From positions 744,001 to 808,000 of the forward strand of contig NZ_CP017015.1 in the NCBI RefSeq assembly GCF_001715535.1: a stretch of 64,000 nucleotides of DNA, read 5' to 3'. This DNA is from Spiroplasma helicoides (lineage in GTDB: Bacteria > Bacillota_I > Bacilli_A > Mycoplasmatales > Mycoplasmataceae). The notes beneath the pieces are model-generated. The model was not told where the DNA came from. It saw only the letters and a list, made by a program, of their open reading frames with translations, and did no database searches. Position 1 is the first letter of the stretch. Each line of letters opens with the position of its first letter. Below are positions 39,772-58,159 of this stretch, one piece after another. A program made the position numbers and the translations under genes.

Positions 39772-39860
39772 TGGTCCCCAGGGCCGGACTTGAACCGGCA
39801 CGGCCTTTAAGAGCCGCTGGATTTTAAGTCCAGTGCGTCTACCACTTCCGCCACCTGGGG
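39772..39860 (-). tRNA. tRNA-Leu (UAA)
   Basis: 89 nt with a long variable arm as expected for class II tRNA. Anticodon loop CTTAAAA gives UAA. Acceptor ends CCCCAGG...CTGGGGACCA, with CCA encoded. T-loop GTTCAAGTC is intact. Last of the five-tRNA cluster. Confidence 0.95.
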
Positions 39861-39867
39861 TTATTAA

Positions 39868-39943
<76 letters not shown>

Positions 39944-39960
39944 GCTAATATAAAAAATAA

Positions 39961-40035
39961 TGGCTGGGCTAGCAGGATTCGAACCGGCGCATGATGGAGT
40001 CAAAGTCCATTGCCTTACCGCTTGGCTATAGCCCA
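39961..40035 (-). tRNA. tRNA-Gln (UUG)
   Basis: 75 nt. Anticodon loop CTTTGAC gives UUG. Begins TGGGCTA as tRNA-Gln usually does, paired with TAGCCCA, and CCA is encoded. Confidence 0.95.
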
Positions 40036-40042
40036 ATTAAGA

Positions 40043-40126
40043 TGGTGGGGAGAGACGGATTCGAACCGCCGAACCGTTAGGAGATGGTTTACAGCCACCC
40101 GCGTTTAGCCACTTCGCTATCTCCCC
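40043..40126 (-). tRNA. tRNA-Tyr (GUA)
   Basis: 84 nt with a long variable arm, as for bacterial tRNA-Tyr. Anticodon loop CTGTAAA gives GUA. Acceptor GGGGAGA/TCTCCCC, and CCA is encoded. Confidence 0.95.
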
Positions 40127-40133
40127 ATTATAG

Positions 40134-40209
40134 TGGTGCTGACTAAAGGACTCGAACCTTCGACCTATTGATTACTAGTCAATTGCTCTACCAACTGAGC
40201 TAAGTCAGC
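40134..40209 (-). tRNA. tRNA-Thr (AGU)
   Basis: 76 nt, first tRNA of the cluster. Anticodon loop CTAGTAA gives AGU. A-starting Thr anticodons are known in some mollicutes. Acceptor GCTGACT/AGTCAGC, and CCA is encoded. Confidence 0.93.
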
Positions 40210-40324: not shown

Positions 40325-42202
40325 TTATGAGTTTCCGGCCTCATATAACCTTTTAAAATGGCCATCTTGGTTAATTAATTCATTGAAAGTTCCTGACTGA
40401 ACAATTCCTTGTCCCGGAGAAATAACAAAAATTTTGTCAACATTTTTTATAGTTGTAAGTCGATGAGCAATTACAACTGTTGTTTTACCAATCATCAGCT
40501 CATTTAACTGTGATTGTATTTCTTTTTCAACAATATTATCAAGAGCACTTGTAGCTTCATCTAAAACCAGTAATTCTGGATTTTTTAACAATATTCTTGC
40601 AATTACTAATCTTTGCTTTTGTCCCCCAGAAAGTAACAATCCCCTTTCACCAAGAACTGTTTCATACCCCTCTGGTCATGAACTTATTATTTTATGAACT
40701 TGTGCTTTTTTACAAGCTTCATGAATTTCTTCATTTGTTGCATCAAAATAACCATATCTAACATTATCATATACATTACCATAGATGATTTGCGGTTCTT
40801 GTTCAACATAGCCAACATGAGATAAGTAACTTTTTAAGTTTAATGCTTTTAAATCTTTGTCATTAACAAGAACTGCACCATCAGTTGGATCATAAAATCT
40901 TAAAAGTAATTTTGAAATTGTTGATTTACCACTACCAGTTTCACCAACAAAAGCATAACTTTTACCTTTTTCAAATACTATGTTCAAATCACTTATTATT
41001 GTTACATTAGTTTTTTCTGGATAGCTAAATTTTATATTTCTAAATTCAATTTTTCTAATTTCTTCATCAAATAAAACCCCGTCTTCTTCATTATCATATA
41101 AAATTGGGTCTCTTTTAATTACTTCATATATTTGTTGTGTTGATGCACTTGCTCTAGATATTCCAGGTATTAAAGCAGCCATTTGTCACAATGGTCTTGT
41201 TAAAGTCACTGTTGCTGTTGTAATTGGAATTAAAATAGATAAAAATTTTGTAACATCTTGATTGTAAAAAATCACAGATGCTGCAATTACAAGCAAATTA
41301 GTAAGAATATCTGAAGCAATCAATGTTGCAAATAAATTACCATCAATTTTAGCAACTGGTTTAAAAATTGACATATAAGGTCTATGAATTTCTCTAATGC
41401 GTTTTTCTTCATAAACTCTAGTCGCACTTGATTTAATTAACTTAATAACCCCAATTCTATCAACCACATCACCATTAATGCTTGAAATTGTTTCTCTTAC
41501 TTTTTTATTTTTTTTACGATAAGTTATTGAATAACAAGCAACAAATATTCCCAATACAATTACTGAAATAGTTGCCACTAGTCCAACTTTTCAGTCAACA
41601 AGCATTATGCTAACTGAACCAAAAACTAATACAAATGGAACTTGAATTGATCAAACTATCAAACCATTTATTTCATTACCAATAACATTAGTATCTCCAA
41701 CAACCTTAGTCATTATCTCACCAGTTTTTTTATCACTATAGTAACTAATGTCTTGATCTAAAAGTCTTTTAATAACTAGTAATCTCAACTCAACTTCTAC
41801 TCTTACTGCTAACCTCACAGATAAAGCGCTTCGATAATATGTAAATATATACATAACAATCAAGTTAGCTCCACATATAATCATTCAAACTCAATATTTA
41901 ATGTCTCAGTAATTTTGTCCTGACCCAGCAACATCATATAAAGTTTGTTGAATCGCAATATTGATCAAATATGCATTAATACTTATTAAAACCGAGTTTA
42001 TTAGTATAACACTGATTAAAGAGTAGAATAAAAGCTTATACTTCTTCCCATAATTCATAATTATTCATAGAAATTTTAGTTTTCCTTTTTCATGGATTAA
42101 TTTCAACAAATTTGCATTAGCGTCAAAAGAGTCTTTTTTTATTTCATCTGATGGCTGTTCTTCATTAATAACACGCAAATTTTTATCAAAGTTTTTTATC
42201 AT
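40325..42202 (-). CDS. ABC exporter, lipid/multidrug half-transporter type
   Basis: 625 residues. A cytosolic tail of about 55 residues is followed by six membrane helices (about 60-340). The nucleotide-binding domain has Walker A GETGSGKST, Q-loop VGYVEQEPQII, signature LLSGGQKQR, Walker B LLVLDEATSALD and H-loop VIAHRL. It works as a dimer; the architecture is that of MsbA/LmrA/BmrA-like exporters, so the substrate may be a lipid or drug. The gene has a structured leader with an intrinsic terminator ending about 40 bases before its ATG, suggesting regulated elongation. Confidence 0.92.
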
Positions 42203-42242: not shown

Positions 42243-42272
42243 AAATAAAAAAAGCACTCTGGGCGGAGTACT
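42243..42272 (-). terminator. Leader terminator before the ABC exporter
   Basis: AGTACTC-CGCCCA-GAGTGCT (7 pairs, one G-U) is followed by seven Ts on the minus strand, 41 bases before the exporter ATG. The loop again has GCCCA, as in the hairpin upstream. Confidence 0.85.
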
Positions 42273-42380
42273 TTGATCTAGAACAAGTGATTAATTATGT
42301 ATTATTAAAATATAAATTTATGTTCATTTGATAGGGCTAAATAAACATTATGGGCTAATGATTTAACCTGTCCTAGACAA
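42243..42380 (-). ncRNA. Structured leader RNA with terminator upstream of the ABC exporter; family unknown
   Basis: This lies in the 311-base space upstream of the exporter. After a strong minus-strand promoter, a perfect 12-pair stem TCTAGGACAGGT (42366-42377) with ACTTGTTCTAGA (42277-42288, two G-U pairs) closes a domain of about 77 bases. Inside are two hairpins, CATTA-GCCCA-TAATG and ATGTTTATTT-AGCCCTATC-AAATGAACAT, whose loops both contain TTAGCCC-like sequence. An intrinsic terminator follows at once (42243-42272), then the exporter ATG at 42202. The layout is that of a riboswitch-type leader, or of a free-standing small RNA. It does not match any riboswitch consensus I can recall; the rest of the gap toward 42513 shows nothing more. 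Confidence 0.65.
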
Positions 42381-42385
42381 TTTAT

Positions 42386-42414
42386 ATTATAGAACAAAAG
42401 TTTTTTATTTTCAA
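42386..42414 (-). promoter_or_regulatory. Promoter of the leader RNA
   Basis: TTGAAA (42409-42414) and TATAAT (42386-42391) with exactly 17 bases between. The predicted start is near 42380, a few bases before the closing stem of the structured leader. Confidence 0.8.
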
Positions 42415-43469: not shown

Positions 43470-46109
43470 CTAATAATCAAGATTATTAATCTGAATTCTT
43501 GTGTTCTTTTTAATATATTTTAGTGAATTTCTAAAGTCTTTTTTAAATGCTTTTTTTTGTTCTATATCTTGAATTTGAGATAACTCACTTCCAAAGTTAT
43601 TTAAAAGTTCATCTCTGTGTAGTAACTGTTTAGTTTTGATTGATTTAACAAGTTCTTTTCTTTTTAATTTAAATTCATAAATAGTTTCTTTAAATAACTT
43701 ATTATGTTTTTTATAAGTTTCTTTATATGAAACATTATTTTCATCACTTACTTTCAATTCAAAATATTGACAATATGCTTTGTATCAAGCTAAAATATAG
43801 CTTATTTTTTGCTCATTTTTAATTTCTTTAGCTTTTTTATCAATAAATTTATTTGTATAACCATAAAAAGCATACGATTCATTGAATTCTAGTGAATCCT
43901 TTTTATTTACAAGTTTTTCATTAGCTTTATAAATTGCAAATCAATATTGTTTAATTTGTATAATTAAATAATCAACTCATTTTGGATTAATTCCATAGTT
44001 AATTTTGTTTCTTAAAATTGTTGATATAGTTTCAACCAATAATGTAACACAGATTATACCTAATAATAATGCACCAAATTCTGGGAAATATTGTTGTTGA
44101 AAGTAACTATTAAGTAAGTATCCCATATTGCTTGCACCAACCGCTCCAAGTACCGATACTTCTTTAAAATTAATATCAAAACGATAAATTATATATGATA
44201 CAACACTACTTGAAGTTTGAGGTAAAATTCCATATCTAATTCTTTGCCAAGAATTCAAACCCGTTGCTTGTAGTTGTGCTACTAATTTCATATTAACTTC
44301 ATCAAATACTTCACGATTGTATTTTGAAAGCATCCCAACTGTCCCCATCATTAAAGCTAAAGCACCAGTAAATGGACCCATTCCAACTAATGAAATAAAG
44401 ATAATTGCATATATGTATGAAGGAATTGCTCTAAGAGCTGAAGTTATTCCAACAAAAAATTTAGCAACAAAAAAATTTGTTATGTTTTGTGAACTAACAA
44501 TTCCTAAAATATAAGCTATAATAGCTCCAAGAGTTGTACCAACTACTGAAATTGCAATTCCTTCAAATAGTAAGTAAATAACTGAATAAGGAGCTGAACC
44601 AGCCTTAGAAAATAGACTTGCCCAATTTATTTTGAACATTTCTATCAAGTGCTTATTTGTTTGGGTAATTGTAGCTTCATTTTCTAATTTAAATTCAATT
44701 AATGAAAGTGAATAACAAAATAAAACTAAAATTATTAAATACATAACAACTCTTTTTATAAATCCTAATGGGTTTGCTTTTAACACTTTCTCAACTGTCA
44801 AACTTTCATTGAATTTTTTATGACTATTATCTGCTTGATCTTTTAAATCAGCTTGCATTTGTGATTTTAAATTTAAAACATTAAAAGTAAATTCTGTTAT
44901 ATATATTTTATCAAGTCTGATGTCACAAGATATTTTTTCATCAAATATAAATCAAGATTTTGAGTTAACGTTTTCTAATTTATATTTTTGAAAACTTGCC
45001 TTATCTGCCTTAATTTTTTCTTTATGTTCTACTTTAAAATTTTTCACTAAACTTTTTTTCTCTTTTAAAAGAGTGTGAATTTCCTCTGCATTATTAACTT
45101 TATCTTTTTTTAATTGATTGTACTTTACATATCAATCTTTTAATAAAACATTTTTTATATAAAATACTAAATTATTTTCTTCTTTAATTTTTTTAATTTT
45201 ATTTCTAATTTTTTTCTGTTCTTTTTGATCTAATAAATAATCTTTGTCAAAAACTATATAAGTTTTAACAACATATATTAAAATTTCTAACATAATGATA
45301 ATGCAGATCAATATAAATAATAAAAATCCTACTCTGCCATACTTTCCATAGTTAACACTATTATCAATTAATTGACCAATTCCAATTCCTGTAACTCCAG
45401 CAATAACTGAAATATATCTAATGTTTGTCTCTAGTGCATAAAAAGCAGCTGATATTATATGTGATGATATCTGTGGTAAAACAGCTGCTCTAAAAGATTT
45501 TATTTTCCCAGCACCTGTTGCTTGCATTGAAATAAAAATTTTTGTATTAATGTGTTCTATTCTTTCAAAGAGGAATTTTGAAGTAATTGAAAAACTAAAT
45601 ATTGTAATTGCAATTGTAATGGTTAAAGTTGTTTGTCCAAAGTAACCCACCAATATTAATGCATAAGTAAATGATGGAATTGTTCTAAAAATTGCAATTA
45701 TAAATTTAGCAAAATTATTTAAAAACTTATTGGCAACCATATTTGAGGCAGCCATTATTGAAATGGGAATTGAAATAATTACTCCTAGTATGGAACCTGC
45801 AAATGCCATTGAAATTGTTGTTCAAACTGACTTAACAACATTTTTCATAAATGAGTTTCCAAAAGAATCGGTATTATTAAAATCTTTAAAGTCTCAAGAG
45901 ACCATTTCTTTTATTCTGTCACCAAAATCTTTCATACTTTTGAAAAAAGTCATTCATTTTGCGTCTAAAAAATAAAAACCAAATACTAACAGCAATATAA
46001 CAAAACATCAAAATGAGTAATAAAAAACTTTTTTAGGTGCTTTTGTATATTTATTGTTTATTTTAAAAACATTTCTTGAAATTAATGAATTAAATTTTCT
46101 GTTTAACAT
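43470..46109 (-). CDS. phnE: Fused double permease, p69/PhnE type
   Basis: 879 residues with two copies of the binding-protein-dependent permease domain. Copy 1 (about residues 90-300) carries SMQATGAGKIKSFRAAVLPQ. Copy 2 (about 510-720) carries AQLQATGLNSWQRIRYGILPQ. These are the EAA-like loops that dock the ATPase. A charged linker joins the two, and about 165 Lys/Glu-rich residues follow the second copy. PhnE is normally one domain acting as a dimer, so this is a fusion of both halves, as described for mycoplasma p69. It follows phnC by 2 bases. It is the membrane part of the p37/p29/p69 uptake system. Confidence 0.88.
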
Positions 46110-46111
46110 AA

Positions 46112-46879
46112 CTAATAATTCTTTCCATAAATTTTTTCAAGAACATCATTGGTTAGTTTTTCAGATGGACCATCAAAAACAATTTCTCCATCTTTAATAC
46201 CAATTATTCTTGAAGCATACTTCATTGCCAACTCAACATGGTGAATATTTATTATTACTGTCATTTTTTCAGATTTATTAATTGATGCAAAATCACTCAT
46301 TACTTGTTTTGCAAGGATTGGATCCAAAGCTGAAACTGGTTCATCTGCAATTATTAAAACAGGTTCTTGTGATATGGTTCTTGCCAAAGCAATTCTTTGC
46401 TATTGACCACCACTTAAGTTTTCAACTCTAACATATGCATAATCTAATAAATTAAGTTTTTCAAGTGAAGAAAGAGCAATTGTTTTGTCATGCTTTGAAA
46501 ATAGTCCTGTTAAAGATCTTCAGAAATTTAGTTTAGCAATTCTTGAGTTCAAAACATTTTTAAGTACACTTAGTTTATCAATGTTGTTGTATTCTTGTGA
46601 CATTAATCCAATCTTTTGTCTTAATCTTCTTAACTTTTTACCTTTAACTTGATTTACAATAAACTCTTCTTTTTCATTTTTTTTATTAAAAAAATCGATT
46701 TTTATTTCACCACTTGTGATTGAGTTAATTTTATTAATAGTTTTTAAAAGTGTTGTTTTACCAGCACCAGATAAACCAATAATCGCTACAAACTCACCCT
46801 CTTTAATTTCAAAATTAATATTTTTTAAAGCATGTTTTCCATTTGGTCAAACTTTATTTACGTTTTTAAAACTTATCAT
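46112..46879 (-). pseudogene. phnC: p29/PhnC-type ABC ATPase broken by an amber codon
   Basis: The reading frame would encode 255 residues with Walker A GLSGAGKTT and Walker B VLIIADEPVSALDP, H-loop INIHHVELA. Codon 160 is TAG (complement at 46400-46402), inside the signature motif: LSGGQ-stop-QRIALAR, where the family has LSGGQQQR. A C-to-T change of a CAG codon gives this. Both sides stay in frame with no other damage. It may be a recent pseudogene, a sequencing error, or suppressed. Located between phnD and phnE in the expected order. A terminator precedes the ATG. Confidence 0.85.
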
Positions 46880-57947: not shown

Positions 57948-58028
57948 TTAACCTCCATAAAATTTAGAATAGTAAAAATTAAATATTTTGAGTGTAATTA
58001 AACAATAACCTATGAAGTACTTCTTAAA

Positions 58029-58097
58029 GCAACTTGTAGCGTCTAGATAGGTCTAGCGTAGAGACTTTGGCCCATTATGCCAAATTATATAAGTTAC
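58029..58097 (-). promoter_or_regulatory. Purine (guanine-type) riboswitch controlling pbuG
   Basis: On the minus strand P1 TAACTT/AAGTTG encloses J1/2 TATAAT, P2 TTTGGC-ATAATGG-GCCAAA, J2/3 GTCTCTAC, P3 around loop ACCTAT, and J3/1 with C-T-A. The L2 and L3 loop sequences are those I know from Mesoplasma florum guanine and 2'-deoxyguanosine riboswitches. The TCTAC core and the C at 58039 (position 74 equivalent) indicate guanine rather than adenine. The expression platform (57960-58028) has a GAAGTACTTC palindrome but no clear U-run, so it may act on translation. Confidence 0.88.
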
Positions 58098-58159
58098 ATT
58101 TAATTACATTTTTATTATATATTATATTTTCTTGTAAATGGTAAATGCATTTTCAATGA

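Follow-up and report, generated by a model that had tools for sequence, protein, structure and literature searches.

A conserved, stand-alone structured RNA of Spiroplasma-type bacteria with C-rich loops and a pseudo-E2 gene as its candidate target

In the 64,000-nt stretch of Spiroplasma helicoides DNA analysed here (the window), a promoter on the minus strand leads into a structured RNA that ends shortly before the gene of an ABC exporter (40325–42202, minus strand; ABC_membrane and ABC_tran domains, Pfam PF00664 and PF00005). The locus raises the question of whether the RNA serves the exporter behind it or acts on other genes. The first-pass annotation had favoured a riboswitch-type leader of the exporter, with a separate small RNA as the alternative. 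We find that the RNA is a previously uncatalogued one, conserved across Spiroplasma-type bacteria, and that it most likely controls the translation of genes elsewhere rather than that of the neighbouring exporter.

All elements of the locus lie on the minus strand. The promoter (42414–42386) has the annotated hexamers, TTGAAA as the −35 element (42414–42409) and TATAAT as the −10 element (42391–42386), separated by 17 nt. The RNA gene covers about 131 nt (42378–42248); its 5′ end is predicted to be GUCUAGG, at about G42378, and its 3′ end probably lies in the U tract of an intrinsic terminator. The 12-pair closing stem P1 described earlier (42377–42366 with 42288–42277) is present and is lengthened by a 13th pair (42378–42276). 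It encloses, as had been noticed, two hairpins with related loops of the UAGCCC type: H1 (42360–42346; CAUUA-GCCCA-UAAUG, loop GCCCA), in which UAGCCCA is invariant in the genus, and H2 (42348–42320), whose loop AGCCCUAUC is a near-invariant element kept through the family. The earlier description requires one correction: bases 42348–42346 in the lower part of H2 are also used by the 3′ side of H1, so that the two hairpins cannot both be fully formed simultaneously. The terminator (42274–42247), found in all homologues, has the loop CGCCCA followed by the U tract and indeed repeats the GCCCA of the upstream hairpin. GCCC is thus found in three hairpin loops, and AGCCCUAU is almost invariant.

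The structure is real. Its folding energy is −30.7 kcal/mol, compared with −17.8 ± 3.3 kcal/mol for 200 dinucleotide shuffles (z = −4.0), none of which equals it. In Rfam 15, nothing reached the gathering score for the RNA, and the earlier annotation had found no fit to purine, TPP, SAM, FMN, lysine, glycine, preQ1 or T-box patterns; at a relaxed threshold the best matches were RprA (E = 2) and Spd-sr07 (E = 3.6), which are at chance level and far below the cut-off. With no covariance-model match, homology to LhrC, RsaE and the other families in Rfam was rejected. A short reading frame in hairpin 2 (AUG UUU AUU UAG) was also rejected because its start and length vary across genera. Elsewhere in the window, Rfam identifies a purine riboswitch aptamer at 58017–58112 (minus strand), which scores 40.3 bits against a gathering score of 37 bits.

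The RNA occurs in one copy in each of the 20 genus genomes, with all of its elements. The genus is probably Spiroplasma, judging by a fibril-type gene and several mreB paralogues. Every member has a −35 element of TTGA, TTGC or TTGT and a TATAAT in the corresponding position, the start is GUCU (GACU once), and both the loops and the terminator persist. A covariance model trained on 21 sequences and run on further genera of the family matched in five of them: g9, g42, g10 (both genomes), g3 (all three genomes) and most g5 genomes. Read directly, these copies show the GUCU-type start and a long closing stem whose sequence is quite different; UUUAGCCCUAUCAA is kept, with slight changes in one genome of g10 and two of g5. 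The terminator loop has CCC throughout the homologues, the exception being CACUC in a truncated copy. This copy, in the 1.1-Mb g5 genome G171 (L106), seems to be reduced to its 3′ part and to have no promoter, as in gene decay. The model gave no convincing match in g2, g4, g6, g7, g8 and g11, where inspection by eye of the weak matches showed that the conserved loop is absent, and it did not find the RNA in G129.

The closing stem had been proposed for a covariation check, and five of its 12 pairs change on both sides. The genus-level alignment consists of 21 sequences, of which 20 are distinct (G147 included); 95.3% of its cells pair, and seven pairs in total, the five of P1 among them, change on both sides. 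The covariation score was reached by none of 500 shuffles, and sliding the structures by one to three columns lowered the paired cells to 40–48%. RNAalifold recovered P1 and the terminator unaided. In the hairpins, 88.9% of the H1 stem cells and 99.3% of the H2 stem cells are paired; covariation support for both stems is weaker because both vary little. Judged from these comparisons, it is close to certain that the RNA forms a conserved, stand-alone structured transcript unit.

Does the exporter belong to this unit? A cis-acting riboswitch or attenuator leader would be consistent with a terminator that lies ~45 nt before the exporter start in the window, where no clear second promoter was noted, and with the exporter also being the next gene in G183 and G177. 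However, although all 20 genus genomes carry the RNA, the exporter directly follows it in just three of them (G000, G183 and G177), and lies ~680 nt further on in G141. In the other genomes, an unchanged RNA is followed by a lipoprotein gene, by something else or, in many of them, by a tRNA cluster that has a separate promoter; in g5 the following gene encodes a lipoprotein of the nucleoside-binding type. Many of the downstream neighbours have a promoter of their own. Apart from the exporter, identified with Pfam, the neighbours were named by eye, as was the usual upstream gene, which resembles deoA. The variety of downstream genes argues against a cis riboswitch, as does the lack of Rfam riboswitch matches. 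In addition, P1 and the terminator coexist in both the minimum-energy and the centroid fold, the two folds compared here. The leader reading is thus strongly contradicted by synteny and is very improbable, and the constant terminator in front of varying genes supports the separate small RNA that had been offered as the alternative.

The conserved RNA has come to adjoin different genes, and the exporter is outside its conserved context. Five tRNA genes are located at 39775–40209 (minus strand), beyond the exporter. As the corresponding cluster directly follows the RNA in many relatives, the exporter looks to have been inserted into an ancestral order. A search of the genome contigs with the exporter gave a distant Bacteroidetes MAG as its sole match. 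Another ABC transporter in the window consists of an ATPase (46112–46879, minus strand) beside a large two-domain permease (43470–46109); a stop codon not far behind the LSGGQ signature divides the ATPase into two in-frame ORFs, which may reflect a pseudogene or a sequencing error.

With its own strong-looking promoter and terminator, independence of its neighbours and a conserved C-rich unpaired motif (GCCC, not UCCC), the RNA has the features of an antisense sRNA. Genes were called mechanically in two complete genus genomes (G000 and G037), with the first ATG taken as the start, which gave 645 ortholog pairs, and the H2 loop UUUAGCCCUAUCAAA was scored against each ribosome-binding region of both genomes. 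The top gene ranked first of 1113 in G000 (−17.0 kcal/mol), and its ortholog ranked second of 796 in G037 (−14.8 kcal/mol); with the reversed loop as a control, the gene dropped to ranks 388 and 305. A second ortholog pair, encoding a membrane protein (449 and 417 aa), ranked fourth in both. Of 150 loop permutations that kept CCC, one attained the best joint score and none the second-best. Leaders as a whole are not enriched in complementary 8-mers, and the target claim therefore rests on specific conserved targets. The fibril and MreB genes were rejected as targets, their ribosome-binding sites having neither GGGCU nor GAUAGGG. The fibril-type gene of G000 (contig 1, ~424287–425850, L132; outside the window) is frameshifted after ~125 codons, which could be either a real loss or a sequencing error; in G037 it is an intact 511-aa ORF.

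The product of the top gene (G000, 854889–857012, minus strand) is 707 aa long. Its N-terminus is of the lipoyl type (PF00364; the G037 ortholog matches at E = 7.8e-6), its middle part resembles a coiled coil, and its C-terminus looks E2-like by eye. Alignment to the genuine E2 of G037 shows another residue in place of the ETDK lysine, for which reason we call the protein pseudo-E2; reading by eye, it also seems to have no catalytic His. A match to pseudo-E2 was found in all 30 genomes searched, although distant, weak N-terminal matches may represent a true lipoyl protein (G156).

The complementarity of pseudo-E2 is conserved, though not in all species. GGGCU stands in its ribosome-binding site in 13 of the 19 genomes of the genus and in all three of g3, and three more genus genomes have GGGC there; the background frequency of GGGCU at ortholog sites is below 1% (5/645 and 3/645 in the two genomes). 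The site has no GGGC in the remaining three of the 19 (G091, G070 and G088), where the RNA is intact. Ahead of the site, 12 of the 19 genus genomes have GGGC in or near the loop of a 5′ hairpin (weak in G079), whose stems differ between species, e.g., GUGUUU/AAACAC and GUUCAA/UUGAAC. A scan of G000 and G037 for intergenic hairpins with a GGGC loop gave a single clear case that lies immediately ahead of a gene in both, the one at pseudo-E2; a weaker hairpin of this kind in G000 overlaps a different start codon.

Because the C-rich loops are complementary to the ribosome-binding site of at least one conserved mRNA, control of translation in trans is the likeliest function. We suggest that the RNA is probably a trans-acting antisense sRNA with C-rich loops that represses its targets, among which pseudo-E2 is the best-supported candidate. 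The RNA would be started by its own promoter and ended by its own terminator, and the closing stem and terminator would present the C-rich hairpin loops. H2 (UUUAGCCCUAUCAAA) would then pair with a G-rich ribosome-binding site (AGGGCUAAA or UUGAUAGGG) and block translation initiation; on the pseudo-E2 mRNA, the partner over the ribosome-binding site would be AGGGCUAAA, and H1 (GCCCA) may add a second loop-loop contact with the UGGGC hairpin at the 5′ end of that mRNA. We infer transcription of the RNA, its pairing in the cell and repression as the outcome, the last from the position of the site.

An antisense RNA of the same kind might have its real targets elsewhere, among other genes whose sites are short and G-rich, such as those of the 449-aa membrane protein or DivIVA. 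UUGAUAGGG precedes two G000 genes (288557–289234 and 831668–833017), and at the first of them it constitutes a 9-nt match to the H2 loop; this gene (L125) encodes a 225-aa protein without a Pfam match and adjoins an mreB paralogue. GGGCU also precedes divIVA in G000, G037, G057 and G109, and the g5 clade keeps the loop although the pseudo-E2 site is absent there, suggesting other targets in that clade or another role of the loop. However, the divIVA site occurs in just these four of the genomes listed, whereas no other ortholog has a joint score as high as pseudo-E2, and most genus members have its site together with a matching 5′ hairpin. We therefore consider it unlikely that pseudo-E2 is not the real target.

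The loop might instead bind a protein or RNA polymerase, as in a scaffold or 6S-like RNA, with the mRNA match being coincidental or secondary. Such a role could explain why the loop is conserved over about 14 nt across genera, which exceeds what short mRNA sites need, and why G000 has elsewhere neither a long perfect target of the H2 loop (GATAGGGCT) nor a perfect 9-nt loop match. Nevertheless, the outcome of the loop permutations and a double site conserved within a single mRNA favour base pairing, and 6S RNA was rejected since there is no Rfam match and the folds show no large central bubble. We regard a protein-binding role as improbable.

If pseudo-E2 repression is extended to the other sites, a Spiroplasma-wide regulon can be imagined in which two kissing loops would set the translation of the pseudo-E2 scaffold and of membrane and DivIVA proteins, as part of a cell-architecture programme of helical mollicutes. 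We offer this as speculation that is rather unlikely to hold. Related genera of the family that have no RNA apparently also have no main target: the full-length pseudo-E2 query gave only partial, single-domain matches there, consistent with absence of the gene, although this query also performs poorly in distant clades that carry the gene, so that absence elsewhere is not firm.

Among known systems, LhrC of Listeria monocytogenes binds a G-rich Shine-Dalgarno region through three C-rich sites and thereby blocks translation; one site lies in a loop, another in a further unpaired segment and the third in the loop of the terminator (PMC4132741). The Spiroplasma RNA likewise stands alone, belongs to a low-GC Gram-positive lineage and has three C-rich sites. 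It differs from LhrC in its motif (GCCC instead of UCCC), in its copy number (one per genome instead of five), in its covarying closing stem and in a target with a GGGC hairpin of its own, and no sequence relation was detected. RsaE/RoxS and other UCCC-loop sRNAs of Firmicutes also use a C-rich unpaired seed against ribosome-binding sites (PMC4132741). The RNA shares such a seed with RsaE/RoxS but has a different architecture and no Rfam match.

RNAIII of Staphylococcus aureus, of about 514 nt, also encodes a peptide, and contacts the rot mRNA through two loop-loop contacts in which C-rich hairpins of the sRNA meet G-rich hairpins of the mRNA or its ribosome-binding site. This two-contact geometry resembles the one proposed for the Spiroplasma RNA, with no homology implied. 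In size and stand-alone nature, the RNA is similar to MCS4 of Mycoplasma capricolum, a U6-like small RNA of about 125 nt in a related mollicute; regarding this comparison, the covariance model detected nothing clearly homologous in those genera of the family that lack the RNA. To our knowledge, most trans-acting regulatory RNAs of mollicutes are predictions that lack support from comparison. In the present case, an RNA extends through several genera with a covarying structure and a loop that fits a named mRNA site in many species. Post-transcriptional control in genome-reduced bacteria thereby becomes directly testable, and the RNA provides an entry point to a pseudo-enzyme of Spiroplasma that is conserved but uncharacterised.
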